From Zingiber officinale (lineage: Eukaryota; Streptophyta; Magnoliopsida; Zingiberales; Zingiberaceae): 64,000 nucleotides of DNA. Below are positions 2,125-61,611 of this stretch, in pieces (positions within the stretch are counted from its first letter, which is position 1; every line of letters begins with the position of its first letter). The stretch is taken from NCBI RefSeq assembly GCF_018446385.1, contig NC_055990.1, forward strand, positions 25,691,891 through 25,755,890, written 5' to 3'. The notes under the pieces were generated by a model. It did no database searches. It was not told the origin of the DNA and saw only the letters and a program-made list of their open reading frames with translations. A program made the translations under genes and the position numbers.

Positions 2125-2142
2125 ATCTCCCCCTTTTTGGTG
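2125..2142 (-). other. Polypurine tract of element A
   Basis: On the minus strand a run of A and G ending AAAAGGGGGAGAT directly abuts the TGTTGG start of the 3' LTR. This is the expected site of plus-strand DNA priming. Confidence 0.7.
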
Positions 2143-2673
2143 TGAGCAATCCAAGTTAAGTTAGGGTAAAAATAGACATAATATAAACTTAACTAAATTT
2201 ACAATTAAGTGTAAAAAATAAAACAAGTTAAATTTTTGTCTACCTCCCCCTAGACTTATACTTTTCCTTCTCCCCCTTTGATCACATAAAAAATGGGGTT
2301 TCTAAAAAAATCTAAGGGTAAAAACTTAAAAAATTTTGAGATCCTTAAAAAATTTTGTAATAATAAACAGTCTCTGTAAAAAAAAATTTAAGTAAAATTT
2401 TAAGAAAATTTTTCTAAGTGAAATTATAAGGAAAAAAATTCTAACTTAAACAGCTTTGAAAACACTTTTTTTTTTTGAAAATTTTTCAAAAAAAACTTAA
2501 TCAGAAATTTTCAATTTCAGAATAACTTTTAACTTAGGCAAAAAATATTTTCTGAAAATTTTTCTAAGTATTAAAGAGAATTTTTTTAAGGAAAAAAAAT
2601 ATTTTGAAAAGAATGTTTGAAAAATTTTAAAAGTATTAATTAATTCTAATTTTAATGCTTTGACAGAAAGTTA

Positions 2674-2791
2674 ATTAAACATTTATTTCAATATTTTGGC
2701 TTCTAGGTCGTGGCGAGGTACTAGGTCTTCTGGTTATTGAAACAACAATCACTTCCTTAGACAAAGCCTTATAAAAAATTCAATGTCTAAT
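2674..2791 (-). other. Conserved ~120-nt structured module, copy 1
   Basis: On the minus strand this lies about 70 nt downstream of the gag stop. Outer arms at 2782-2791 and 2674-2683 pair with one G-U wobble (ATTAGACATT with AATGTTTAAT). Between them is the shared core (GGCTTTGTCTA near the start, CTCGCCACGACC near the end). The inner helices are weaker in this decayed copy than in those at 6.7 and 59.7 kb. Function unknown. Confidence 0.6.
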
Positions 2792-5700
2792 TTTCTCACT
2801 AAAAGCGCTAATTTCGTTTAAAATTTAGAGTAAGTAAGATTTAAAAACCCAATATAGGTTCTAGCCTACTGGATTAACTAAATATTTCTTAGGTACATAT
2901 TTTCTTGAAATATTCCTAATTTGTCCCTGGTGATATCTATAATACCAATTTAAATTTTTAAATTTTCTAAAATTAGATGAGTATGCATAGTTTTTCAAAT
3001 TATCTACTTGAATTTTCAGATCTTTATTTTCTGATTTCAATTTCTCATTTTCTAATTTTGATTTGTCTAATTCTTCTAAGGGACAAGATTTAGCCAAAAT
3101 TATTTTTTTATTTTCAATCTCCTTTTCTAATTTGCAATCGTCTTTTGTTAATAGTTTAACAAACTTAAAGAGTTTATCGGGAGGAAATGATCGTACCTCA
3201 CTTACCTTGTCGATCTCGTTGTCCGTTTCTCTCCCTGAACTGCTGCTTTTTTCTGACGTGGCTCCCCCTTCATTGATGCTCTCGATGCTCATTTCGGAAG
3301 AGCTTGACTCGCAGTTGTCGTCTTGATGGCTTGCCATTAGGGCAAGTCCAGAGAATGCCTCGACTTCCGACGACGTATCGTCCCACGTCGCCTTTAGGGT
3401 CTTTCGCTTTTGGATAGACTTCTTACCCTTCTCCTTGTCCTTGTTCTTCAGCTTGGGGCAATTGTCCTTGACGTGTCCTTCTTCATCGCAGTGGTAGCAG
3501 CGGATCGTCCTTTTCTTTTTCCCCTGCGGATGGTTAGTAGATCTAGATTTACAAAGTTTCTTGAATCTTCTTACCATCATTACCATTTCCTCGTCATCGA
3601 GAGAAGATTCCAACTCAGGTTCGTCTCTCGAAGCTTTGAGGGTGACGTTGTTCTTGGGCTCCTTTGAACCTGCACATCTTGATTCGTGCACTTCAAAAGT
3701 CGAGAAAAATTCTTCTAATGAAATTTTTTCTAAGTCTTTTGAAATGTAAAAGGCATCTACTAGTGATGCCCATTTTGAATTTCTCGGAAATGAATTTAAC
3801 GCGTACCTTAGCGAACTTGGTTACTTATTTTTTCTCCGAGATTCGACAGTCCGGTGATGATCTCTTTGATTCTTGAGTGCAGATGCGCAACTGTCTCGTC
3901 TTCCCCAAGTCACAGGCTAGTGAGCTGATTGCGAAGTAGATCTCTTCTGGCGAGCTTGGCTTCGGACGTTCCTTCGTGCAGCTCGAGAAACTTCTCCCAA
4001 AGTTCCTTTGCCGAGTCGTAGTTCCCGATTCAATTGACTTCTTGTGGTGGAAGAACGCTTAACAGATGATATTCTACTTTGCCGTTCACCACAAAGTCAG
4101 TCTGCTCCTTTTTCGTCCATTGATATTTTTCCTTACCCTTTGGAGCTACAAAGCCAAGTTTCATTGTTAAAATTAATTCAGGGGGCGTTTGGTTTTTTCC
4201 TAGGAATGAGAATCGGAATGGGAATCATAGTATTATGGAATGGGAATGAGTATGAGCATGGATATCACTTTTAAAAGCAATGTTTGGTTAGTTGAATATT
4301 TTCTATTGGAATCAATCAAAATTTCCTTTTTTACCCTTAAAGGAAAATAAAAGAAAAAAAAATAGATGTGAAAGAAAGTTGAATGTGAGAGAAAAATATA
4401 ATGAGAGCGAAAGTATGATGAGAGAGAAAGTGTGATGGGAAAGAATGAAGAGAGAGAAAGTGTTGTTAGGATGTATACTAAAAGCCTAGCTTTTGGTATA
4501 AACATTTATCTAGAAATAAGAATCACATTGGTCAAATGTCTACATTTAAGATAAATGTAGTTGTTCAATTAATTTATATTGTAGATAACATGGTGTATGG
4601 TGTCACACACAGAGGATCATGTTATCAATACCTTATAAATTATAAACAGTAGCTCACAACCATGATGGAAAGTAACAACCCATTGGAAGGTCGTAGTGTA
4701 ATTAGGTATTAGTTTATCTTAACTATATAATTACACTAGTACACTTAGAGTGTATTGAGTAGGACCATTAGAGGTCGTTTCTTTTATACTGACTTTATAA
4801 AGGAACAAAGACCTCAGTTATTATGGAAGTGTGTGCTCTTAATCCTAATATAATAACAAGCACATATATTTGATATTTATTTCTTTAATTTATCAATGGA
4901 TGAGATTTAGTTCGATAAATCAATAAGCCCGATAAGTTGGGAAATGATATCACTTATAGTGTGTGTTGTTGATTATAGAAGGAAATTGTGGCCTAGTGAT
5001 CTAGGTTGAGAATGTCCCCAAGAGGAGCTCATAAGGATTGTCATGTTAAACCCTGCAGGTGGACTTAGTCCGACATGACGATGAAGTTGAGTGGTACTAT
5101 TCTTGGAGCTAGATATTAATTAAGTGAGTTGTCAATAACTTACTTAATTAGTGGACATTTGTTATCTTAAACACAGGGAGACTAACACACTCATAATAAG
5201 AAGGAGCCCAAAAATGTAATTTGGGATTGGTGCGGTAGTTCAATAATAATTCTTTAGTGGAATGAATTATTATTGATGAAATTAAGTTGTGTGTTCGGGG
5301 CGAACACAGGATGCTTAATTTCATCGGGAGACCAAAACTAATTCTCCTCTCGGTCCCTATTGTAGCCTCTTAATTATAGAGTACTATACCCACCTATACC
5401 CACCTTCTTACCCATCCTATAGGGGCCGGCAAAGCTAGCTTGGAGACCAAGCTAGGGCCGGCCATGGTTTGGTTCATGGGTGAATTCATGTGGCCGGCCC
5501 TATCTTGAACTCAAGCTTAGGTGGCCGGCCCTATTAAAATAAAAAGGAATTTTAATTTTAAAATTTTTCTTATGTGGATAATATGATTTAAAAGAGAGTT
5601 TAAAAATTTAAATCTTTCCTTTTATAAGATTCTACAAAAGATTAAGAGAAGAGTTAAAATCTCTTTCCTTATTTGTAGATTAAAAGGTTGATTTTAATTT

Positions 5701-6155
5701 TGGTAAAAACTTTCCTTTTAATTATGTTCATGATTTAAAAGAAAGTTTAAAAATTAAAAATTCTCTTTTATTAGTTTCTACAAAAGATTAAGAAAAGATT
5801 TAATATCTTTCCTTATTTGTAAATTGAAAAGAGACTTTAATTTTTAGAGATAACTTTCCTTTTTGGAAATTATCCACATGTTTAAAAGAAAGATTTTAAT
5901 TTATAAAATTTCTTTTTATTAACCAATCATGAAGGGATTAAAATTATTGGAGAAATTTTTATAAATTTCTAGAAACAAATTAGGAAGTTTTAATTTTTAT
6001 TTTAATTAAAACTCTTCTTGTTTTGGGAAAAGTGGTGGCCGGCCAAATAAATTGAAGAAGAGAAAATTATTTTTAATTAAATAAATTTTCCTTTTCATGG
6101 CAAAAGAATTAAGGAAGTTTTTATTTAAATTTCCTTATTTGCCAAGACCAAGAAT

Positions 6156-6163
6156 TATAAAAG
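6156..6163 (+). promoter_or_regulatory. TATA box of the 2.6-kb LTR
   Basis: TATAAAAG is followed by a GC-rich stretch. The homologous position of the minus-strand LTR (15147-15154) keeps the identical TATAAAAG. Transcription would start about 30 nt downstream, giving a long R-U5 leader. Confidence 0.6.
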
Positions 6164-6719
6164 CGGGGGTAGAGGAGGTTTCATTGTGAACAACTCTATT
6201 CTTTTTCTTCCTCTCTTTTCTTCCTTGGTGTGGCCGGCCCCTAGAGGTTCCCCTTCTCCTTCTCTCTTCTCCTTCTTGTGGCTGAGACTTCATCATCTCT
6301 TGGAGGCATAGAAGTGGCCGGATCTAGCTTGGAGAAAAGGAGAGAAAGGAGTCTTGTTTCTTGCATCCCTTGGAGCTTGGTTGGTGGAAAAAGATCTTCA
6401 TCTTTTGGAAGCTTTGTGCTTGGCCGAAACTTGAAGAAAGGAGAAGAAGGTGCTTTGGTGGTTTCTCATCTCGGAAGATCGTTGCCCACACAACGTCCGA
6501 GGTTAGAAGAGGAATACGGTAGAAGATCAATAGGTTTTTCTAAAAGGTATAACTAGTATTTTTTCTTTCCGCATCATACTAGTTATTTTTGAAAATAATA
6601 CCAAATACAAGAGGCATACGATTCTAGTATTTCGAATTTGTTTTCGATATTGTGTTCTTTTATTTTTTTTCCTTGTGATTTGATTGTTTTTTTCGGTTGA
6701 CCTAAAGTTATTTAAGGAA

Positions 6720-6841
6720 ATTAAATATTAACTTTCCTTAAAAGGCTTTGTCTAGTCGGTGGTGGTTGTTCCCATATCCAAGAAGGCCATATGCCTCGCC
6801 ACGTCAGTACTGGGAGTCAATTTTGGAAACTAATATTTAAT
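6720..6841 (+). other. Conserved ~120-nt structured module, copy 2 (inside LTR)
   Basis: Perfect 11-bp outer arms lie at 6720-6730 (ATTAAATATTA) and 6831-6841 (TAATATTTAAT). Inside, GTGGTG (6759-6764) can pair with CGCCAC (6797-6802), and TCCCA (6770-6774) with TGGGA (6811-6815), which interleave as a pseudoknot. The small hairpin AGGC-CATAT-GCCT (6784-6796) abuts the CGCCAC strand directly. This is the best preserved LTR copy. Confidence 0.65.
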
Positions 6842-6850
6842 GAAATTAAT

Positions 6851-6990
6851 AACCTAGGTGATTTGGATCGAACGTGTTAAGTTTCGCAGGAGATCCGAGT
6901 CTAAACCTAAAAGAACAAATAGATTAAACTTTGGATCAAACGTGTTAAGTTCCGCAGGCGATCCAAGTTTAATTTAAAAGAACACATGGT
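6851..6990 (+). repeat. Duplicated hairpin in LTR U5
   Basis: Two about 70-nt direct copies each contain 'ttggatc(g/a)aacgtgttaagt' followed by 'cgcagg(a/c)gatcc', so each can fold GGATC with GATCC. The same pair is present in the minus-strand LTR (about 14345-14450). Confidence 0.6.
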
Positions 6991-8108
6991 AGCTAGGAAA
7001 TGGTTCAGACCTTTGTACAAAATTTTTGTACAGTGGAACCATTAGGTTTTCCGAGTAGCAACCAACAAGTGTGACGAGAGAAAATGAGAAAAGAGAGTAG
7101 ATGAGAGAGAGCGTGATAATAGAAGATGAGAGACAAAATATGATGAGAGAGAAAATATGATGAGTGAGAAAATATGATGAGGGAGGATGAAGAGAGAGAA
7201 AGTGTAATTAGAAAAAATGAGAAGAGAGTGTGTGATGGGAGAGATTGAGGAGAGAGAAAGTATGATAATAGAGAAAGTGTGATGAGAGAGAAAGTGTGAT
7301 GAGAAAAAAATAGAAAATCAAATGTGATTGGAGATATTGAGGAGAGAGAAAGCATGATGAGAAAGAAAGTGTGTTAAGAAAAAAAGGGAGAGAATGTGAT
7401 GGGAGATAGATTGAAGAGAGAGAAAGTGTGATGAAAAAAAAAAGAAAAGAGAGTGTAATGTGATAGATTGAGAAGAGAGAGGAAGTATGATGACAGAGGA
7501 AGTATGATGAGAGAGAAAGTGTGATGAGAAAAAAAAGAGGAAGAGAGTGATGGAAGAGATTAAGGAGAGAGAAAGTGTAATGAGAAAAAAAGAGTAAGGA
7601 AAGTGTGATGAGAGAGATTAAAGAGAGAGAAAGTGGGTGATAAAATGAGGAGAGAGAAAATATGATGAGAGAGAACAAAAAGAGAGAAAGTGATATGAAA
7701 GAAAAATTAAATAAATATATTTTAATATTTGATATTAAAGGGGAAAATTTTAGTTTTTGGTCAAGGGTATTTTGGGAATAAGGAAATATTTTGATTGTTG
7801 AAAATAGGGTAATGACTCATTGAAGGGGGGAGACATGAGAATGAGTCATTACCCAATTATAAGGATTCATTCCCTTATTTGTATTCTCATTCCTATAATC
7901 CAAACATCAACAATGGGAATCAATGATTGCTATTCCCATTCCCCACTCTTATTCCCCTAAACCAAACGCCCCCTCAAAATCTATTGTGAAAAATACCTCC
8001 AATAGTTTTTTTCTAGGTTGCGAAATCCCCTTTGTATTTCGGCGGGTGGATGCTTGGTCCAGCCATTATGTTTGCTTCGATTGGCGGTTAGTCCTCCTGA
8101 AGCGCCTT

Positions 8109-13294: not shown

Positions 13295-14229
13295 GGTTTT
13301 AATTTTATTATCTTGTCAACCTATCTTTATGACAAATTAATAGTTGGTTTTCTTCGGTCACACAAATAATAACAGTGACTCCGATGGGGAGGATACTATT
13401 AGACGTGCCTAAGTGTATACCATTACTTGACACTAAGTCCATTAATAAGATTATGCCCCTTCCGATGGGGAAGATCACACGCTCTTAATTAATTTCCTAT
13501 AGTCATCCTAAATGAAAATTTGATCTAGTGATCTGCAAACAAACTCATCCGATATGGAGAAAGGCACTCACAGCCAACGCGCAAGTTTGTTTGCATCACT
13601 TACAAACCAGTAATGGAGACTGTGGAATTTATTAAAATAAATCTCTCTCCCACTTAGTTATTTAAAGTGAGGAATTTTAAGTTATCCTAGCATACATCAC
13701 ATGCATACACACACATTACAGTAAATAAAAGCAATAAATATGGAAATTATTTTCCAACTATTATGGTCTTTTCCTGTTACTGTCCTTCATGTGCTCCAAC
13801 CCTAGCTGCTGCCATCTTTAGCCACCACCATCGGGTCGAGTCGTCGCATCCATCTTGCTTCTTATTCCACTACGCCTCTGGTGCTCCTAAAGTGCCCGCC
13901 TCGCAAGAATCCGATCCGCGACAAAAATAGAATTTTACATATATCGATCCTATATTCCACGAGGGAATGTACATGTAATCTAGATCGAAAATAAAATTCT
14001 AAAATCCTAGGGCTAATACAGCTCCTGCTGTATTAGTTACATACAATCATGCACACACAAAATATTGCCCTTGACATGTCCAAGGGTCCAATCACATACA
14101 ACATCAATAAGCCATAATAGTTGGAGCTTGCAACCACAAAGTTAGCACATCCTACTATTATCCTGCCTAAATTATGTATGACATGTGCATAACCTTATTT
14201 AAAAACCAAACACACAGAGGCAAACCCTA
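13295..14229 (-). other. Leader of the family-G Copia element (truncated)
   Basis: This minus-strand internal sequence follows the PBS at 14230-14241. No gag frame is visible. It holds two copies of 'ccgatgggga(a/g)ga' and an oligopyrimidine stretch. The element is cut at about 13295 against the Gypsy gag fragment, so no second LTR is found here. Confidence 0.45.
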
Positions 14230-14241
14230 GCTCTGATACCA
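14230..14241 (-). other. Primer-binding site of the family-G Copia element
   Basis: On the minus strand TGGTATCAGAGC starts two bases after the LTR terminus ACCAACA. It shows that the 2.6-kb repeat is an LTR and fixes its orientation. Confidence 0.85.
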
Positions 14242-14474
14242 ATTGTTGGTTAGTCCTAGGAAAATCGTACCGGCTCCACTGTACAAAATTTTGTACAAGT
14301 GTCGAACCTTTCCTTAAATAACCTATTGTGTTCTTTAGAAGTTAAATTAGGAATCGCAGACGGAACTTAACATCATTGATTCCAAATTTAACTTATCTGT
14401 TCTTAATGGTTTAGATTTGAATCACAAGCGGAACTTAACACTATTGATTCAAATTCACCTATGTTATTAATTCC

Positions 14475-14597
14475 ATTAAATATTAATTTCTAAAATTGGC
14501 TTCCGAGACTGCATGGCGAGGCACATGGTCTTCTTGGATATGGGAGCAACTACCACCGCCTAGACAAAACCTTTTAAGGAAAATTAATATTAATTTC
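14475..14597 (-). other. Conserved ~120-nt structured module, copy 3 (inside LTR)
   Basis: In the minus sense the arms at about 14583-14597 (AAATTAATATTAATTT) and 14475-14489 (AAATTAATATTTAAT) pair over most of their length. The core keeps GTCTAGGCGGTGG, CCAAGAAG and CTCGCCATG. The inner pseudoknot pairing is weaker than in copy 2. Confidence 0.55.
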
Positions 14598-15146
14598 CAT
14601 AAATAACTCTAGGTTTAACCAAAAAGAACAATCGAATCACAAATTCGAAAAATAAAACAAAAGAAATACAAATTTGAAACAAATCCAAAAACTCTAGAAT
14701 CATATGCCTATTGTGTTTGGTATTTCCAAAAATAACTATACAAAGAAAACTAGTATGATGCGGAAAACAATTACTAGTTATACCTTTCTTTGTAAGCAAA
14801 TAACTTCTTGATCTTCTACCGTATTTCTCTTCTAACCTCGGACGTTGTGTGGGCAACGATCTTCCGAGATAAGAACCACCAAGCACCTTCTTCTTCCTTC
14901 TAGGTTTTGGCCACCAAAAGCTCCTCCAAAGATGAAGAGGTTCGGCCACCACCAAGCTCCAAGGGATGCTAGAAATATCGCCTCCTTTTCTCTCCTTCTT
15001 CTCCAAGCAAGATCCGGCCACCACAAGGACTCCAAGGATGAGATGAGGTTCGGCCAAAAGATGGAGAAGAGAGAAAGAGGAGGAGTCGGCCACACCCAAG
15101 GAGAAAAATAATAGAGTCGTTCTCCATGAAGACACCTCTACCCCCT

Positions 15147-15154
15147 CTTTTATA
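15147..15154 (-). promoter_or_regulatory. TATA box of the minus-strand 2.6-kb LTR
   Basis: TATAAAAG on the minus strand is identical to the box in the solo LTR (6156-6163) and sits at the equivalent position. Confidence 0.6.
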
Positions 15155-16845
15155 ATCCTTGGTCTTGGCAAATAAGGAAATTTAAATAAAAAACTTCCTT
15201 AATTCTTTTGCCATGAAAAGGAAAATTTATTTAATTAAAAATAATTTTCTTCTCATTAAACATTATAGTCGGCCACATTAATCTCCAAAACAAGGAGAGT
15301 TTTAATTAACACAAGAATTAAAACTTCCTAATTTGTCTCCGGAAATTTATAAAAATTTCTCCAATAATTTTTCCCTTCATGGTGGATTATAAAAAGAAAT
15401 TTTTATATATTAAAATCTTTCTTTTAAACATGTGGATGATTTCCAAAAAGGAAATTTATCTCTAAAAATTAAAATCTCCTTTCAATCTACAAATAAGGAA
15501 AGATATCAAATCTTTTATTAATCTTTTGTAGAAACTTATAAAAGAGAATATTTAATTTTTAAACTCTCTTTTAAATCATGAACATGGTTAAAAAAGGAAA
15601 GTTTTCTCAAAATTAAAATCTACCTTTCAATCTACAAATAAGGAAAGATTTCAAATCTTTTCTTAATCTTTTGTAGAAAGCTATAAAAGGAGAGATTTAA
15701 ATTTTAAACTCTCTTTTAAAACCATGGAATCCACATAAGAAAAATTTATAAATAAAATCCTTTTTAATATGATGTGGCTGGCCACATCATGCTTGGGCTC
15801 CAAGCTTTGGCCGACCAACAACTTGGCTCAACCTTTGGGTCTTGGCCGGCCCTAGCTTGGGTTCCAAGCTAGCTTGGCCGGCCACCAAAGAGTGGGTAAG
15901 AAGTTGGGTATATGGTGGGTATAAATCTCTATATAAAAGAGGCTACGATAGGGACCGATAGGAGGAATTGATTTTGGTCTCCCGATGAAATTAAGTTTCC
16001 CGTGTTCGCCCCGAACACACAACTTAACTTCATCAATAATAATTCATACCACTAAAGAATTATTATTAAACTACCGCACCAATCCCAAATTACATTTTGA
16101 GCTCCTTCTCATTATGAGTGTGTTAGTCTCCCTGTGTTTAAGAAGTCGAATGTCTACTAATTAAATGAGTTACTGACAACTCACTTAATTAATATCTTAG
16201 TCCAAGAGTAGTACCACTCAACCTTATCGTCATGTCAGACTAAGTCCACCTGCAGGGTTTAACATGACAATCCTTATGAGCTCCTCTTGGGGACATTATC
16301 AACCTAGATTAATAGGACACAGTTTCCTTCTATAATCAACAACACACACTATAAGTGATATCATTTCTCAACTTATCGGGCTTATTGATTTATCGAACTA
16401 AATCTCGCCCATTGATAAATTAAAGAAATAAATAACAAATATATGTGCTTGTTATTATATTAGGATTAAGAACACACACTTCCATAATAACTAAGGTCTA
16501 TTTCTTTTATCAAGTCAATATAAAAAGAACTTACCTAAAATGATCCTACTCAATACACTTAGAGTGTACTAGTGTAATTTATTAGTCAAGATAAACTAAT
16601 ACCTAATTACACTACGACTATTCCAATGGTTTGTTCCTTTCCATCTTAGACCTGAGCAACTGTTTATAATTTATAAAGAACCGATAACATGATCTTCTGT
16701 GTGTGACACCACACACCATGTTATCTACAATATAAATTAATTGAACAACTATATTTATCATAAATGTAGACATTTGACCAATGTGATTCTTATTTCTAGA
16801 TAAATGTTTCTACCAAAAGCTAGGCTTTTAGTATACATCCTAACA

Positions 16846-17509: not shown

Positions 17510-17521
17510 TAGTATCAGAGC
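17510..17521 (+). other. Primer-binding site of element F
   Basis: TAGTATCAGAGC, a one-base variant of the Met-tRNA site, lies two bases after the LTR end. Confidence 0.75.
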
Positions 17522-17572
17522 CAGATCACCTCAGAAGGACTAACCGCCAACTGAAGCACAACGATCAAGACG

Positions 17573-19018
17573 ATGGCCTGAGCAAATATTCATCCTCCAA
17601 AGTTCGAAGGAGATTTCTCCACATGGAAGCGAAAAATGGAGGTATTTTTTAAAACTGAATTTGATATACTTTTAATCATGAAATATGGATATGCAGTGCC
17701 GAAAGATAAAGAAGAAAACACGTGGAGCAAGAAGGAGCAAGACGATTTTGTCGCCAACGGAAAGGCTGAGTTCCACCTGCTCAGCGTTCTGCCACCTCAG
17801 GAGGTAAATCGGATCGGTAGCTACGACTCTGCGAAAGATCTCTGGGAAAAATTCCTGGAGCTTCACGAAGGTACCTCCGAAGCGAAGCTAGTGAGGCGCG
17901 ACATCCTCCGGAATCAGTTGATGAACCTCCGGATGAACCTAGGCGAGAAGGTAGCGCAACTCCAATCAAGGATCAAAGAGCTGATCACGCAACTAACCAA
18001 TCTTGGAGAAGAGGTAACGAACCGGGACTCTATCCGGTACGCGCTCAACGTCTTCCCCAGAACTTCAGAGTGGGCCTCCTTAGTAGATGCGTACTACATC
18101 TCTAAGGACTTCGAGGTAAGTACTTTAGAACAATTGTTTTCCACTTTTGAACTTCACGAATCTCGAGTTTCAGAGCCCAATGGAGTAGAGAAGACCAGTC
18201 AGAACATTGCCTTAAAGGCAAAAATGAACCGTTCTGACTCCGAAGCCTCGGTCGACGAATCAGAAGTGGCACTACTGGTAAGACGCTTCAATAAATTTTT
18301 TAAATCTAACAAATTTAGATCGCAGAGGCATGAGAGAAAAAGAAGAACGACTCGTTGCTACAATTGCAACGAAGAAGGGCACATCAAGGATGACTGCCCG
18401 AAATTGAAGAGCAAGAAAAAGGAGAAGGCAAAGACCAAGTACAAGAAACCAGAATCCTCCAAACACAAGAACCTGAAGGCCACTTGGTCAGACTCATCCT
18501 CCGAATCAGACGTCGAATAATTCTCGGGGTTAGCACTAATAGCTAACCATCAGCTGGAAGAAGAGTCAAGCTCAGAGATGAGTATCGATGAAGCGAGAGG
18601 AACATCAGAAGAGGAAAGCTGCAGTGAAGGGGGAGCCTCACCGAGTCAGGTAAGTCAGGTACACAATCTAACCCCGACTCAGTCTTTTCGCTTTATTAAA
18701 TCTTTTTCTAAAGACTTATTCGAATTACAAAAAGTAAATAAAGAATTGAAAATGAAATTAGCAAGAGCATGTCCACTTGAGATGTACGTTAGTATAAAAT
18801 CAGAAAATGATAAATTAAAATTAGAAATTGAAAAATTGAAATCTGATGCATGTTTAAATAAATTTCCAAAATCAAAAATTAAAACTTATGGAAAATTAAA
18901 TTGGTACATTAGAAACCATCAGGGTCAACTTAGAAGAGTGCCCAAGAATTCTATACCCCCTAAGTATCTGATTAATTCAGTAGAAGGAACATCTATTGGG
19001 TTCCGAAATCTGTACTAA
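17573..19018 (+). pseudogene. Gag polyprotein of element F with in-frame stops
   Basis: This is the Copia gag domain (LWEKFLELHEGTSEAKLVRR; RYALNVFPRTSEWASLVDAY), then a CCHC knuckle (CYNCNEEGHIKDDC, about 18357-18398), a basic stretch, a Ser/Glu-rich stretch and a coiled C-terminus. The frame is continuous but for a TGA at the third codon and a TAA at 18518-18520. It is the same family as the gag copies at 2861-8066 and 56595-57868. Known Copia gags form the virus-like particle in the cytoplasm. Confidence 0.85.
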
Positions 19019-19048
19019 ATTAATTTAATTAAAGCTCTCAGAAGCAAA

Positions 19049-19169
19049 ATTAAATGTTAAATTTCTTTATGAAACTTTGTCTAAGGAAGTGGTTGTTGTT
19101 CCAATAACCAAGAAGGCCTAGTGTCTCGCCACGACCTGCAAGTTGAAGTATTGAAATAAAATATTTAAT
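19049..19169 (+). other. Conserved ~120-nt structured module, copy 4
   Basis: It begins 30 nt after the gag stop. Arms ATTAAATGTT (19049-19058) and AATATTTAAT (19160-19169) pair with one G-U wobble. The inner hairpin AGGC-CTAGT-GTCT abuts CGCCAC as in copies 2 and 6. Confidence 0.6.
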
Positions 19170-19616
19170 TAACTTTCTGAAAAAGTATTAAACTAAAATT
19201 AAATAATGCTTTGAAAGTTTTTTCAGAAGTTTTTTTTCTAAAAATTAATTCTTGACTTAGAAATTATTTCTGGAAAATTCTAAAAATTAATTTAACTTAG
19301 AATTGTCCGAAAAATTCTAAAAATACAGTTAACTTAGGATTTTTTTTCTTTCAACTTAAAAATCTGATAAATATTTTTTTAGTGTTATACTCTTACCCCG
19401 TTTTTGCTGTGATCAAAGGGGGAGAGATTAGTACAAGTTTAGGGGGAGTTAGGAAAATTAAAATTTTTTAAATATTTTTCTACACTGTGTTGCAATTTTA
19501 TTTATTGCAAATTTATGATTAACATGTTAGTTTAGTAATTTTCTTTAAAATTACTTTTTGTGTCTGTTTTTACCCTAACTTGAACTTGGGTTGATGCACA
19601 TCAAAAATGGAGAGAT

Positions 19617-19858
19617 TATTGGACCCCGTGGTAGTTTTGATGTGATTAATCAAGTTGGTTAGGTCTTACTTAGTGTTTGATCCCTGTGCCTGAGTGTGCA
19701 GGAGCTTAGGAGTGCAGGAAGTCGAGCGGAAGACGCAGCTAGCAAGAAGGACGGCACGGGAAGAGAGCTGATGGGCTCGGTGCATCCGAAGAACGAGAGA
19801 GCTGTCGAAGAGTACACCGGTGGGCGAGAAGAACGTGCGTGGCGTTCGAGGGACGTTA
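19617..19858 (+). repeat. Partial 3' LTR of element F
   Basis: This begins TATTGGACCCC (the family norm is TGTTGGAACC) right after 'ggagagat', and continues through 'gtgtgcaggagcttaggag', which is shared with the LTRs of elements A and B. It breaks at 19858. Confidence 0.7.
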
Positions 19859-54620: not shown

Positions 54621-56437
54621 ATCAAAACTACTTGTACCACAGGTGAGGGGATACTTACATCCTTTTCGCTTGTGGTTCTAAAGTGTGGTGATGGAAGAAG
54701 AGGTCTCTTCTTCTTGTTCTCCTCCTTTGATTTCCCTTGGTAGCCTTCCTTGTATTCTAGGAGGAACCTTGTTTTTGGGGGCCGAAAATGGAGGAGAGGG
54801 GGCTGAGGTTCTCGGTGATGGAGAGGAGAGAATGAGAGAAATGAGAGAAAAAATAAAATCTCCTCTTTACATACTCTCTTTTATGTTAAGGGGGAAGATG
54901 TAGCAAAATTGGTTTTTGCTTTCCTTCTCCCTTAGCCCTTTTTTTTTCATTTTTTTTCTTTTTATTTTATTTATTTATTTGTTCTCATCATTCATGATGA
55001 AACAAGGGGGAATGAATCCCCTTAATTCCCCTCTTTAAGTCACGGCAAAAGATGAAGAAGAGGGAGAGAAAAGAAGGAAGGCAAGTTGCCTTTCTCTTGT
55101 TCTTTTCTTGTTTTCTTTTGGCTAGCTTTTACTCTCATCCTTATCATGAGTTTCCCTCCTTTGCTATCAATATATTATTCCTATCCCAACTGGTTATTAC
55201 CCATTAATCCTATCATTTACATCATGAGAGGTTTAAGGTTCAATCCTTGACAACTCCCTATTTTTATTTCTTTTTATTTCTTTTTGGTTCAACATTCTAC
55301 TAATATTTTTCTAAGGCAAATTCATCATTCTCTTATTTTATCTTAAAAGCTTAGTGGGTGTTACACCCCGGAGCCTAAAGTCAACAGATGTTGACTTTTT
55401 CATCCAGGGACCACTGCTCCGATTCAGTTCGCCTCGGTCCGGGTCTTCAACTCCGGATCCGCTTGCTTGGGTGATCTCTACCATCCGGAAAAGGGCTCAC
55501 CCGAACTCAACTTCCGGTCTTCTCGAGCGGCCTTCCCTTCGGCTTCTCGTCCCTCAAAATCGCCACGTGCTTCCTTCTCGTCCGCCGACATACTCATCTG
55601 AAGTCTTCATCCCTCGGACGCACCGCGTGCCGCCCTTCTAGCTAGCTGCGTCTCTTGCTCTTCGAGCAGTCTTCCGCTCCGGCTTTCGTCCCTCGGAACC
55701 ACCGCACGCTTCCTTCTCGTCCGCCTGTGTACTCTTCCGCAGCGCCTCGTCCCTCGAACGTACCGCGTGCCATCCTTCTCGTTAGCTGCGTCTTCCACTT
55801 GAGTACCTATGCTCCTAAGCTCCTGCACACTTAGACACAAGGTTAGAAACACATAGGACCTAACTTAACTTGTTGATCACACCAAAACAACCTTGGGATT
55901 CCAACAATCTCCCTTTTTTGGTGTGAGCAACCCAAGTTAAGCTAGGGTAAAAATAGACATAAAATAAACTTAACTAAATTTACAATTAAGTGTAAAAAAT
56001 AAAACAAGTTAAATTTTGGTCTACCTCCCCCTAGACTTATACTAATCCTTCTCCCCATTTGATTACAAAAAAATGGGGTTTCAAAAAAAATCTACGGGTT
56101 AAAGACTTAGAAAATTTTGAGATCCTTAAAAACATGCAATAATTTTTACATAAACAGTCTCTGAAAAATTTTAAGTAAAATTTTCTAAGTGAAATTATAA
56201 GAAAGAATTCTAACTTAGACGGTTTTGTAAAAAAAAATAAATAAAAAAAAATAATTTTCTAAGTTAAAAAAAAATATTTTTGAAAAAAAATTTCTAACTT
56301 AAATCTTTTGAAATTTTTTCTAAGTAATTAAATTTCTAAGTCAATTTCACGTAAAAGTATTTTTCTAAGTATAAAAATATTTTGAAAAACTTTGAAAGTA
56401 TTAATTAATTCTAATTTTAATGCTTTGACAGAAAGTT

Positions 56438-56559
56438 AATTAAACATTTATTTCAATATTTTAGCTTCCAGGTCGTGGCGAGACACTAGACCTTCTTGGT
56501 TATTGAAGCAACAACCTCTTCCTAAGACAAAGCCTCATAGAGAAATTCATTGTTTAATT
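56438..56559 (-). other. Conserved ~120-nt structured module, copy 5
   Basis: On the minus strand the arms AATTAAACA (56551-56559 reversed) and TGTTTAATT (56438-56446 reversed) pair perfectly over nine bases, different bases from the other copies. GCTTC can pair with GAAGC inside. It follows the gag of element B. Confidence 0.6.
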
Positions 56560-56594
56560 TTCGCACTGGAAAGCGCTAATTTTAATTTTAAAAT

Positions 56595-57868
56595 TTAGAC
56601 TAAGCAAGATTTAGGAACCCAATAAAGGTTCCAGCTTACTAGATTAACTAAAAAATTTTTAGGGACATATTCTCTTGAAATGTTCCTAATTTGTCCTGGG
56701 TGATATCTATAATACCAATGCAAAGTTTTAAATTTTCTAAAATCAGATGAGCATGCATAGTTTTTCAAGTTGTCTATTTGATTTTTCAAATTTTGATTTT
56801 TCAAATTTTGATTTTCTAATTGTAATTTTTCATTTTCTAATTTTGATTTATCTAATTCTTCTAAAGGGCAGGATTTAGCTAAAGTTATTTTTAAATTCTT
56901 TATTTCTTTTTTCTAATTTACAACAGTCTTTAGTTAATAACTTAACAAACTTAAAAAGTTTATCAGGAGGAAGAGAACGTACCTGACTTACCTTGTCGAG
57001 TTCGTTGTCTGTGTCTCCCCCTGATCTGCTGCTTTCTTCAGACGAAGCTCCCCCTTCATCAATGCTCTCGATGCTCATCTCGGAAGAGCTTGAATCGCAG
57101 TCGTCGTCTTGATATCTCGCCATCAGTGCGAGCCCGGAGAATGTTTCGACTTCCGATTCGGATGACGTATCGTCCCACGTCGCCTTTAGGGCCTTTCGCT
57201 TTTGGATAGACTTCTTACCCTTCTCCTTGTTCTTGTTCTTCAGCTTGGAGCAGTTGTCCTTGACGTGCCCTTCTTCGTCGCAGTGGTAGCAGCGGATCGT
57301 TCTTTTCTTCTTTCCCTGCGGATGATTAGTAGATCTGGATTTACAAAGTTTCTTGAATCTTCTTACCATCATTACCATTTCCTCGTCGTCGAGAGAGGAT
57401 TACGACTCTGGTTCGTCTCTCAAAGCTTTGAGGGCGACGTTGTTCTTGGGCTCCTTCATTCCTGCACATCTTGACTCATGCACTTCAAATGTTGAAAAGA
57501 ATTCTCCTAATGAAATCTTTTCTAAACTTTAGAAATGTAAAATGCATCTACTAATGATGCCCATTTGGTATTTCTAGGAAAGGAGTTTAAAGCGTACCTT
57601 AGCGAATCTCGGTTACTTACTTTTTCTTCGAGATTCGAAAGTCTGGTAGTAATTTCTTTTAGTCTCGAGTGCAGATGCACGACTGTCTCGTCTTCCCCAA
57701 GTCACAGGCTGGTGAGCTGATTGCGAAGCAAATCTCTTCTGGCGAGCTTGGCTTCGGACGCCCCTTCGTGCAGCTCGAGGAACTTCTCCCAAAGTTCCTT
57801 TGTTAAGTCGTAGTGCCCGATCCTGTTGACTTCTTGAGGTGGAAGAATGCTTAGCAGATGGTATTCTG
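56595..57868 (-). pseudogene. Gag polyprotein of element B, 5' deleted
   Basis: The CCHC knuckle (CYHCDEEGHVKDNC, about 57252-57295) and flanks match the gag of element A closely. The N-terminus is missing upstream of an EYHLLS-like segment, where LTR sequence begins. A TAA (about 57400) and further stops or shifts near 56915, 57530 and 57710 break the frame. Confidence 0.85.
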
Positions 57869-58862
57869 CGCAACCCTTCCCGACTTTTCAAACTAACACT
57901 TGCATATAAAATAGAAAAGCAATAAATCAAAACAGAAAAAGACGAGGCACCAGATGTTTACTTGGTTACAACCGGGGAGGTTGTTAATCCAAGGAAAATG
58001 ATCGCACTACTATCTCCTTCAGGCAGAGAAGCCTCTTTTACAACAGTGTAGGTACAGAAAGAAAGAAGCTAATCTAAACAGTGGAAGCGCACAAGCGTTG
58101 TTACAATTTCTAAACTGATTGAAAAGCTTCTTGACCAAGGCTATATTTATAACCTTGGTCGGGGCGCCTGGAAGGGGTTCCGGGTACCCTGGGGGGTTAA
58201 AACTTTACCCCCCAACGTTCAGATCGCATTTGACACGATCTGGTCAACAAATCAAGTTTGGGCGCCCGGAAGGGTTCCGGGCGCCCTGGGCTGCTCCGGG
58301 CGCCCGGAATGGTTCCGGGCGCCCCGGAGCCTAAAGTCAACAGATGTTGAATTTTTCCTCCGGGGACCACTACTCTGGTTCAGTTCGCCTCGGTCCGGGT
58401 CTTCAACTCTGGATCCGCTTGCTTGGGTGATCTTTGCCATCCGGAAAAAGGCTCACCCGAACCCAACTTCCGGTCTTCTTGAGCAGGCTTCCCTCCTGCT
58501 TCTCGTCCCTCGGAATCGCCGTGTATTTTCTTCTAGTCCGCCGGCGTACTCATCCATAGTCTTCATCCCTCGGACACACCATGTGCCGTCCTTCTCGCTA
58601 GCTGCGTCTCTTGCTCCTCGAGCAGTCTTCCGCTCCGACTTTCGTCCCTCGGAACCACCACACGCTTCCTTCTCATCCGCCGGTGTACTCTTCCGCAGCG
58701 CCTCGTCCCTCGGACGCACCGGGTGCCGTCCTTCTCATTAGCTGCGTCTTCCATTAGAGTACCTATGCTCCTAAGCTCTTGCACACTTAGACACAAGGTT
58801 AGAAACACACAGGACCTAACTTATCTTGTTGATCACACCAAAACAACCTTGGGGTTCCAACA
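57869..58862 (-). repeat. Partial 5' LTR of element B
   Basis: It matches 50733 onward of the other LTR and ends 'ggttccaaca' at 58862. The outer 60 bases (LTR 3' end in its own sense) and the PBS are deleted. The GGCGCC array (58163-58325) and TATA (about 58142-58152) are intact. Confidence 0.8.
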
Positions 58863-59215
58863 GGTAGGTCTATAGCATAAATATTCTTTTTCCTAATTCC
58901 CTTAAGTGTAATTTGAGGATTATTTATATTCTTAATTATACAGTCAGTTTTTGAAAATGTGACTAAATATCCTGAGTCACATAACTGGCTAATACTAAGT
59001 AAATTGAAGCTAAATTGGTCAACAAATAATACTTTTCGAATGTAAAAATCAGAGTTTAATTGAATATTACCTATTCCAATTACTTTAAGGGTCCCGTCGT
59101 TGCCGAAAGCAACAAACCCTAGGTTCTTGAGTTTCAACTTACTGAATTTCAATCTATCTCTAGTCACATGTCTGGAGCATCTACTATCTAGCATCCATTG
59201 ATCCAAATCTTTAAG
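58863..59215 (-). pseudogene. Copia protease region of element C, 5' side of insertion
   Basis: It has the gag-pol junction region WMLDSRCSRHVT, where the family norm is a D-S-G-C start, so the catalytic Gly is replaced by Arg. Then FGNDGTLKVIGIGNI and SFNLLSISQLCDSGY follow, as in Copia protease to gag-pre-integrase. It stops at the border of element B. The rest resumes at 50674. Confidence 0.75.
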
Positions 59216-59291
59216 TTCTTACATAAAGTATTTGATTTAGGTCAATTTAATAGATTTAGAAGATAGTTTTGATTGAAATCAATTTAATTTT

Positions 59292-59350
59292 CCATCTCAC
59301 TGAATCTAAATGATCAAAACATGGTATCCTTATGGGTGATTGTGAGATGG
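59292..59350. other. Stem-loop with CCATCTCAC arms, copy 1
   Basis: CCATCTCAC (59292-59300) and GTGAGATGG (59342-59350) are perfectly complementary and enclose about 41 bases. A second version lies at 59581-59638. Confidence 0.55.
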
Positions 59351-59580: not shown

Positions 59581-59638
59581 CCATCTCACCTGATTCTAAG
59601 TTATCAATCAAGTACTCTTAAGTAATTTTGTGAGATGG
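59581..59638. other. Stem-loop with CCATCTCAC arms, copy 2
   Basis: The same nine-base arms (59581-59589 and 59630-59638) enclose a loop related to, but different from, copy 1 ('tgattctaagttatcaatca' against 'tgaatctaaatgatcaaaac'). Confidence 0.55.
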
Positions 59639-60238: not shown

Positions 60239-61611
60239 TTATTCCAATGTAGTCTTCAAATCCTTGACTTGACTTTTCAGGTTGGAATTCTCTTCCTCAA
60301 GTTTTTGGACTTGAGTTAAGATTCCAGTCTGAACAGGGTCAGCCAAGGATTCAGTATTAGTCACTTCTTTAAGGGATGTTACCTCCTTTAGAATCAACTT
60401 GATCCGAACATTGGATTTTGCTAACTTATGCATTAAATAATTAATTAAATTATATAGACGATTTGTACTTACAGAGGGGTTTGACCCTTCGGAAACGGAT
60501 GAGGATCCGTGGCTTCTCTCAGACTCAGCTTCCGATTCGTCCTCACTTCCAGATTTGTTAATGCAGTCCCGGGTCGTCATCGCGAGAAAACTCGTCTGTT
60601 CGAGTTCTTCGTCGTCGGGCTCTTCCGAGGATGACTCGTCCCAGGTTGCCTTCAAAGCTTTCTTCCTTCTTAGCTTCTTCGCATCCTTCTGGTTTGGGCA
60701 GTTCGCCTTGATGTGCCCCTTCTGATTGCATCCGTAGCACGTCACCTCAAACTTTACCTTTGGTTGGGCCTCCTTGGACTGAATTACCTTTTTAACATCT
60801 TTCTTGTTGAAGTCCTTCTTTCTATAGAGCTTCTTCACCAGGTTGACGAGTTCGGTCGTGAGTTCATCGTCATCATCTGAGTCCGGTTCTTCTTCTGATT
60901 CTGGTTCAGTTCTGCGTTTTGTTTTTGCTTCCTTGGTTCTGCTTGTACCTGCAACCAAAGCAATACCTTTCTCGGCTGGACGTGAGTTTACCTGTTCATA
61001 TAATTCAAACTCTGCAAATAATTCATCTAACTTAATGGAAGAGAGATCCTTAGAAACCTTGTAAGCGTCTACCATAGATGCCCACAAGGTATTCCTTGGA
61101 AAAGCGTTTAAAGCATACCTCAAGATGTCCCGGTTCTCTACTTTTTGTCTGATTGCATGTAGACCATTGAGTAGATCCTCTATCCGAGCGTGGAGCTGGC
61201 TAGCCGTCTCATCTTCCTGCATTTTAATATTATATAATTTATTAAATAATAAATTCCTCTTACTTACCTTGGTGTCGGCATTCCTTCATGAAGCTCGATC
61301 AGCTTCTCACAAAGTTCTTTGGCGCTCGTGAACGGGCTGACGCGGTTCAGCTCCTCCTTCGTCAGTTCGCATTGGAGGGTGCAGGTTGCTTTAGCATTGG
61401 CTTCTACCTTTTTGATAAGGGTTGCGTCCCAGTTTTCGTACGGTAGTGGCTTGCCGGTGCCGTCAGTTGGTATTTCCAGCCCGGTTTTGACGATCACCTA
61501 GACTTCAAAGTGAGTCTGGAGATACACCTCCATCCGACCCTTCCAGTACCCGAAATCATCTCCGGAGAAGAGCGGTGGGTGAGCAGTGCTGAAACCTTCT
61601 TGGAAAGCCAT
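60239..61611 (-). pseudogene. Gag polyprotein of element C
   Basis: It starts MAFQEGFSTAHPPLFSGD at 61611, then the Copia gag domain (WKGRMEVYL; ELHEG; YALNAFPRNTLWASMVDAY), a CCHC knuckle (CYGCNQKGHIKANC, about 60700-60742), acidic stretches and a coiled C-terminus. A TAG at 61498-61500 replaces an expected Trp codon, and the frame shifts near 61255-61270. The rest (61222-60239) is fully open for 327 residues. It is a different family from the gags of A, B and F. Confidence 0.85.

Follow-up and report, generated by a model that had tools for sequence, protein, structure and literature searches.

The question raised by this locus is whether a segment of ~120 nt that recurs in different retroelements of the window, the whole 64,000-nucleotide stretch of Zingiber officinale DNA analyzed here, is a conserved RNA structure, and what shape and role such a structure would have. 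The preliminary description had claimed six copies of ~120 nt. All six intervals are present, each checked on its own strand, and they measure 118, 122, 123, 121, 122, and 120 nt in the order listed below. The arms described for them were found (ATTAAATATTA/TAATATTTAAT, AATTAAACA/TGTTTAATT, and a 13-bp pair in copy 6), and the context is as claimed, with four copies 3' of gag and two in an LTR. Aligned in the same orientation, the six copies have a mean column identity of 83% in the module and of 76% when flanks are included (195 columns). With a covariance model derived from these copies, they score 113.9-130.8 bits, and the next match in the window reaches 20.3 bits.

2674..2791, minus strand: module copy 1, after gag; 120.4 bits
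6720..6841, plus strand: module copy 2, in the LTR at 4464-7067; 121.7 bits
14475..14597, minus strand: module copy 3, inside the LTR of a related copy; 113.9 bits
19049..19169, plus strand: module copy 4, 30 nt past the stop ending the gag region; 124.3 bits
56438..56559, minus strand: module copy 5, after gag; 128.6 bits
59709..59828, minus strand: module copy 6, between gag and protease, with a 13-bp P1; 130.8 bits

The elements that carry these copies are marked in the window by the following features.

4464..7067, plus strand: solo LTR of a Ty1-copia family, holding copy 2, with ends TGTTAGG...CCAACA and a target-site duplication AGTGT at 4459-4463 and 7068-7072
14244..16845, minus strand: LTR holding copy 3, 84% identical to 4464-7067, each LTR being ~2.6 kb
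17573..19018, plus strand: gag region of the copy-4 element, stop-interrupted, with Retrotran_gag_2 and a zinc knuckle above the Pfam cut-off in 17582-18517
58871..59218, minus strand: protease-region piece 3' of copy 6, LDSRCSRHVTRD..., with Pol_BBD above the Pfam cut-off
60242..61285, minus strand: gag piece 5' of copy 6, with copia-type gag and a zinc knuckle, both below the Pfam cut-off

Directly past the LTR at 14244-16845, a primer-binding-site-like sequence, TTGGTATCAGAGCTAGGG, lies at 14225-14242 on the minus strand; because it comes next on that strand, we read this LTR as a 5' LTR. The sequence TTGGTATCAGAGC after the LTR of copy 3 we take to be the usual copia primer-binding site. 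In the elements of copies 4 and 1, no pol was found between gag and the 3' LTR, and the copy-5 element is 84% identical to the copy-1 element. The elements at 17521-19617, 2128-4180, and 55913-57870 consist of gag followed by AAAAAGGGGGAGATTGTTGG-type PPT/LTR junctions, with no pol found before the junctions. Such gag-bearing elements are, in other words, abundant pol-less derivatives (junction in 19 of 24 related loci).

BLASTN comparison of the LTR family with the gag families returned the module, whole or partial, as the sole match in 7 of 8 pairs, and the eighth pair gave no match. The LTR of copy 2 matches the copy-6 element over 2245-2372, where the module is 2251-2372; the copy-4 and copy-6 elements have in common only the module with 11 nt before it and 47 nt after it; and the copy-1 and copy-5 elements share with the copy-6 element the module and short gag pieces. 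From these matches, the module is a discrete unit. An exact search of 3.09 Gb of genome gave 31,266 matches for the core pattern ATANCCAAGAAGGCCNNNTGCCTCGCCAYG and 913 for a second core pattern, AAGAAGGCCNNNTGTCTCRCCACG, with 0 for the reversed control in both cases; these are counts of places, not elements, and an element with two LTRs counts twice. Twenty pattern matches, picked for diversity among the first hundred listed, were all full modules (102.6-128.5 bits). The BLASTN results and the genome counts exclude that the module is shared by chance. Outside plants, the 18 fixed bases of the core are matched in 10 prokaryote contigs, none of which scores with the covariance model, and these matches were rejected as chance; viral contigs gave 0 core matches.

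Between the copy-4 and copy-5 elements, the module is identical at 103 of 120 positions (86%), and eight upstream 120-nt blocks, mostly gag, are 56-74% identical (mean 65%). The corresponding values for the copy-4 and copy-1 elements are 99 of 118 positions (84%) and, in eight upstream blocks, 53-71% (mean 64%). Downstream blocks are 46-69% identical for copies 4 and 5; those of copies 4 and 1 are also rather similar, with identity at 72-81% of aligned positions, but every block has 19-70 gapped columns. Since module identity tops both the upstream and the downstream blocks, the module is the best-kept stretch in both comparisons. These results showed that the module changes more slowly than the adjoining gag region.

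Across the sampled genome loci, the module has two usual sites, one in the LTR, on the 5' side of the primer-binding site, and the other shortly past gag, which in one family means between gag and protease. All seven further loci of the LTR-A type (L002-L008) have the module in the LTR, and all align to the LTR through its 3' end. In two family members that retain their LTR pair (L009/L010 and L011/L012), the LTRs alone carry the module, and the core lies ~326 nt 5' of the primer-binding site (L009, L011). The internal region of L011/L012 holds a copia-type integrase and RVT_2, so that a copia pol region is bordered by an LTR related to 4464-7067. Over 113 residues, the LTR family and copy 6 are 28% identical in the protease region, and the carriers therefore belong to different branches, presumably the SIRE-like and Tork/TAR-like Copia lineages.

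For the other site, 58 gag-type loci (29 C-type and 29 F-type) were sampled by similarity to copies 4 and 6, and gag lies upstream in sense in 53 of them. Four of the five exceptions (L017, L018, L019, and L036) have an antisense gag piece just 5' of the module; at the fifth (L023), an LTR with its own module is inserted close by. The former four make up two close pairs, with a spacing of 32 kb on C14 and of 24 kb on C13, and may be allelic tandem duplicates that go back to a single broken copy. Between the detected gag end and the module lie 37-89 nt in C-type loci and 199-435 nt in F-type loci. A downstream protease was detected in 8 of the 29 F-type loci; within ~1.5 kb downstream, none was found in the 29 C-type loci. 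Where the protease was found by motif (four loci), it starts 539-644 nt past the core. Of 24 C loci retrieved with the core expression, 19 have a PPT/LTR junction 345-586 nt past the core, and the C-type elements look gag-only. All three frames through the module contain stops in L033 and L021, which rules out the module as coding sequence.

Further features were observed near the module copies. Between copy 6 and the protease, two imperfect hairpins, CCATCTCAC...GTGAGATGG, lie at 59581-59638 and 59292-59350 on the minus strand. The first keeps GTGAGATGG in all six aligned F-type loci (copy 6 included), with at most 3 differences in the other arm, and the second is present in four of the six. 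A stop in ATGTAG occurs a few codons 5' of the protease frame in the F-type loci L021 and L033, and a splice-acceptor-like TATGTAG stands just 5' of the protease motif in three of L013, L021, L025, and L033; the gag-pol spacer with the module in F-type loci may be an intron. In the LTR past copy 2, 6865-6964 holds a tandem pair, GGATC(A/G)AACGTGTTAAGTT(C/T)CGCAGG.GATCC, and the second repeat of L014 reads GGATT...AATCC, its complementary ends differing together. On the 5' side of copy 2, a hairpin at 6546-6602, GGTAT-AACTAGTAT...ATACTAGTT...ATACC, contains a donor-like AAAG/GTATAA; this donor-like sequence is found in 7 of 7 LTR-A loci, and inspection by eye showed the hairpin only in the window copy, L014, and L023. 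In the gag region of the copy-4 element, GTCAG/GTAAGTCAG/GT lies at 18645-18662, and AAG/GTAAGTSAGGTAC occurs at a similar distance 5' of copies 1 and 5, so that gag retains a splice-donor consensus in these elements.

For the secondary structure, 97 copies were cut to 41 at <93% identity, in three groups (LTR, 13; C, 14; F, 14). The helices were numbered with position 1 at window position 6718, and the nested structure is as follows.

Nested helices: P1 3-12/115-124; P2 16-19/109-112; P3 23-24/104-105; P4 27-31/97-101; P5 35-39/92-96; P6 42-46/81-85; near the tip, 68-70/76-78
Helices in copy 2: P1 ATTAAATATTA/TAATATTTAAT; P2 TTTCC/GGAAA; P4 GGCT/AGTC; P5 CTAGT/ACTGG; P6 GTGGT/GCCAC
6701..6858, plus strand: the rod as it extends outward from copy 2, CCTAAAGTTAT / ATAACCTAGG, from the MFE fold and the flank-swap test

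The structure was compared with a tree-aware null in which the same substitutions were re-placed in 300 replicates. Canonical pairing was 93.0%, compared with 81.6 +/- 2.6% in the null (maximum of 300, 87.7%). New pair-breaking changes numbered 42 (null, 54.9 +/- 5.1; minimum, 43) and extra pair types 30 (null, 20.8 +/- 2.9; maximum, 31). The total of covarying pairs, 9, was inside the null range (5.3 +/- 1.7; maximum, 11). These totals were obtained with the tip helix in a wrong register, 69-71/76-78, which works against the structure; in the correct register, 68-78 is GC in 40 of 41 copies, 69-77 is G-C/U in 39 of 41, and 70-76 is C/U-G in 39 of 41. By helix, the canonical fraction of P1 was reached in 0 of 300 replicates, and P3 (p = 0.007) and P4 (p = 0.01) also stood out; P2, P5, and P6 taken singly were not significant against this null. 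For covarying pairs, the values were 0.033 for P3, 0.08 for P4, and 0.36 for P1, which is not significant by this measure. The hairpin 45-48/55-58 (GUGG/CCAU, GUUG/CAAU) gave p = 0.007 for covarying pairs. It has two bases in common with P6, and the tip may therefore be branched or switch between forms.

The strand of the RNA is indicated by two near-invariant G.U pairs, 36-95 (UG in 36 of 40 scored rows) and 46-81 (UG in 38 of 41). On the other strand, these would be A.C mismatches, and they therefore point to sense RNA. The folding z-score was below -2 for 28 of 41 modules in sense (-2 or more for 13 of 41) and for 19 of 41 in antisense.

The preliminary description had proposed two interleaved helices, and this part did not hold up. 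GGCTTT/AAGGCC and CTAGG/CCTAG, the two helices that the pseudoknot test covered by name, had canonical fractions of 0.87 and 0.88, compared with 0.85 and 0.84 in the null (p = 0.44 and 0.33). A pseudoknotted retroelement RNA was rejected because these two candidates do no better than the tree-aware null. What the variation does fit is a nested rod whose tip is branched or open.

Because the nested structure had been drawn from the same sequences, we carried out a cross-validation in which the fold of a single sequence was tested in the other groups. The canonical fraction was 0.81-0.88 in 10 of 10 tests and 0.25-0.55 in a slid control, with the 3' partner moved by 1-3. Double changes that were still paired ranged from 56 of 90 to 42 of 45 (62-93%) across lineages, and in the slid controls they varied widely, with extremes of 0 of 21 and 17 of 20 and most values below half; these are counts of cells, not of independent events. 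The 36-nt outer flanks of six families (40 copies) were then combined in all ways, and the true assignment gave the lowest total of 720, with the own partner being the single best for four of the six families. Since the outer flanks, as a set, pair best with their own family, the rod extends past the arms first reported. That the outer arms differ in sequence and stay complementary was thus borne out by P1 pairing, flank swapping, and cross-lineage pairing.

An R-scape search of a larger alignment, which had been put forward as a check and possible refutation, was approximated by a tree-aware all-pairs G test. Blind to the structure, no pair reached E < 0.05 (best E = 0.49), and an unsupervised scan of all stems found none above the null, the nested ones included; the three deep sequence groups leave such tests little statistical power. 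Given the stated structure, pairs are kept between lineages through two-sided changes in the null, flank, and cross-lineage tests. Taken together, the pairing is preserved between lineages, and of the original proposal, the conserved RNA common to different retroelements stands with the BLASTN, null, flank, and cross-lineage results, and the pseudoknot falls away. As modeled here, the genomic RNA of two Ty1-copia branches carries a conserved RNA domain in the sense orientation, shaped as a rod of ~120 nt as first described and ~160-210 nt with the outer stem.

We tentatively favor, at somewhat short of even chances, the reading that the module acts in cis in the unspliced genomic RNA and serves packaging/dimerisation or nuclear export, these roles being taken undivided. 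The stem would display a conserved tip (GUCUAGG-AGUGG...CCAAGAAGGCC...CUCGCCA) to a protein, either the Gag of the element or a host RNA-binding or export factor, and this contact would mark the full-length unspliced RNA for packaging/dimerisation or nuclear export. By acting in cis, the module could work from the 5' leader (LTR) as well as from a place 3' of gag, and a spliced gag-only mRNA could lose it while the genomic RNA would keep it. The location is that expected of a packaging signal, in the presumed leader or near gag, with the LTR copies 5' of the primer-binding site and the others just 3' of gag; these two working places imply that the position relative to gag is flexible. The gag-only elements keep the module (protease in 0 of 29 C loci, PPT/LTR junction in 19 of 24), which argues that it does not serve pol expression. 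According to PMC3735527 and PMC8892269, some copia-type elements produce a spliced gag mRNA plus an unspliced genomic RNA. Among the 29 C-type loci, donor-like GTAAGT has 23 hits near -400, and CAG or AAG/GTAAGT is also found in window copies 1, 4, and 5; donor-like sites near -650 number 14 among the 29 F-type loci (under half at a common place), and the donor-like AGGTATAA is upstream of the module in 7 of 7 LTR-A loci, all of these being consensus matches only, with a given 6-mer expected ~0.4 times per 1.5 kb by chance. A palindromic tip loop as the dimerisation site was set aside as suggestive only: CTAG, CATG, CATATG, and CAATTG occur in the loop, but so do CAAG, CTCG, and CGTG.

Both locations of the module would also fit a control of 3' ends, in which one structure marks or masks poly(A) sites after gag and in the LTR, since gag-only RNA ends after gag and full-length RNAs end in the LTR. 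PMC8892269 reports that splicing-coupled premature cleavage yields the gag-only RNA of EVD and calls this common to Ty1/Copia, and AATAAA lies 100-200 nt before the module with 31 hits in 29 C loci and 35 in 29 F loci. However, only 2 such hits were found in 7 LTR-A loci, and the interval 100-200 nt past the module start has 29 hits in the 29 C loci, compared with 3 in 29 F loci and 3 in 7 LTR-A loci, so that the placement is inconsistent across families. The gag-only elements need no premature end yet retain the module, the LTR family has it in the 5' leader too, and we regard 3'-end control as unlikely. It is distinctly unlikely that the module is a shunt- or IRES-like leader element for the translation of gag in the LTR family and of pol in the copy-6 family. 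The ~0.8-kb non-coding spacer that holds the module between gag and protease in the latter family would suit this role, as would the stop just 5' of the protease frame in two translated loci; the distance from the core to the motif-found protease (539-644 nt in four loci) speaks against it, as do the 29 C-type loci, which retain the module with protease found downstream in none.

The sharp boundaries at the inverted arms, and the presence of the module in lineages at different sites, would be expected of a passenger, that is, a MITE-like small inverted-repeat transposon or a recombination cassette copied with the elements and having no RNA function. The sampled copies nevertheless keep to two usual sites and one orientation (53 of 58 gag-type loci, 7 of 7 LTR-A loci), the module changes less than the neighbouring gag region, pairs survive double changes across lineages, and the flanks outside the arms co-vary as a set, all of which makes a passenger very unlikely. 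A MITE proper was rejected despite the inverted arms, with 53 of 58 copies after gag in sense and 7 of 7 LTR-A copies in the LTR, among loci found by similarity to the window copies. A small-RNA or DNA role, with the ~200-nt imperfect hairpin as a Dicer-like substrate or as a DNA cruciform or protein site, appears highly improbable: the hairpin is long and imperfect and its antisense folds too, but the near-invariant G.U pairs favor sense RNA, and a self-silencing hairpin brings the element no obvious advantage.

The preferred reading, a cis-acting element of the unspliced genomic RNA, was then set against what is known. The statement that no named family fits agrees with Rfam 15, which had 0 matches in the window at the gathering score; a relaxed scan of 6650-6900, covering copy 2 only, gave a best match of E = 0.76 and 17.1 bits, where the gathering score is 93. 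A known RNA family is ruled out by the Rfam 15 result over the window and this relaxed scan of copy 2. In the open-licence literature, we did not find the core letters, or conserved plant retroelement RNA structures of this kind, described. We take the module to be a new RNA domain within a known kind, the cis-acting RNA signals of retroelements. Published work describes BARE and EVD as copia-type elements that splice to gag-only RNA (PMC3735527, PMC8892269), the unspliced EVD RNA as retained in the nucleus (PMC8892269), and mouse IAP and MusD as having cis export structures (PMC12786077). The last source, a 2025 review, states that plant LTR elements are generally without introns, with exceptions, and that no direct studies of RNA export of plant LTR retrotransposons have been conducted.

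Against this background, it is conceivable, if doubtful, that plant Ty1-copia genomic RNA uses this domain to evade splicing-dependent nuclear retention, as with a plant RTE/MTE counterpart, or to be picked for packaging. The domain would then be the first cis-acting RNA with such a role to be defined by sequence, and it would have moved between Copia branches, changed place (from leader to post-gag or the reverse), and been exploited by gag-only elements too. As a short and very abundant structured RNA of two branches, it provides a concrete sequence for tests of export, packaging, or 3'-end control. If it was exchanged between the branches, cis-acting RNA domains would move as modules among retroelements.

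As described in the literature, known systems resemble the module in different respects. Like it, the mouse IAP RTE and MusD MTE are structured RNA domains of LTR retrotransposons; acting in cis, they handle unspliced genomic RNA (PMC12786077), as the module would in the favored reading; they are set apart by description, the MTE having a pseudoknot and a kissing loop whereas the module fits a nested rod. The Tca2 readthrough pseudoknot of a Candida copia-like element is also an RNA structure between gag and pol (PMC2194720), but the ginger module lies in a non-coding spacer and persists without pol, and a pseudoknot is unsupported for it. Barley BARE comprises copia elements that make a gag-only RNA by splicing, and for BARE2, PMC3735527 mentions conserved signals for dimerisation and packaging; compared with the BARE signal by description only, the ginger module differs in occupying two different places. 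The region after gag in Arabidopsis EVD is likewise from a Ty1/Copia element, is regulatory, and yields gag-only RNA, as PMC8892269 describes it. In EVD, however, this region is an intron plus a terminator, whereas in ginger it is a conserved RNA rod that is present in the LTR leader too.
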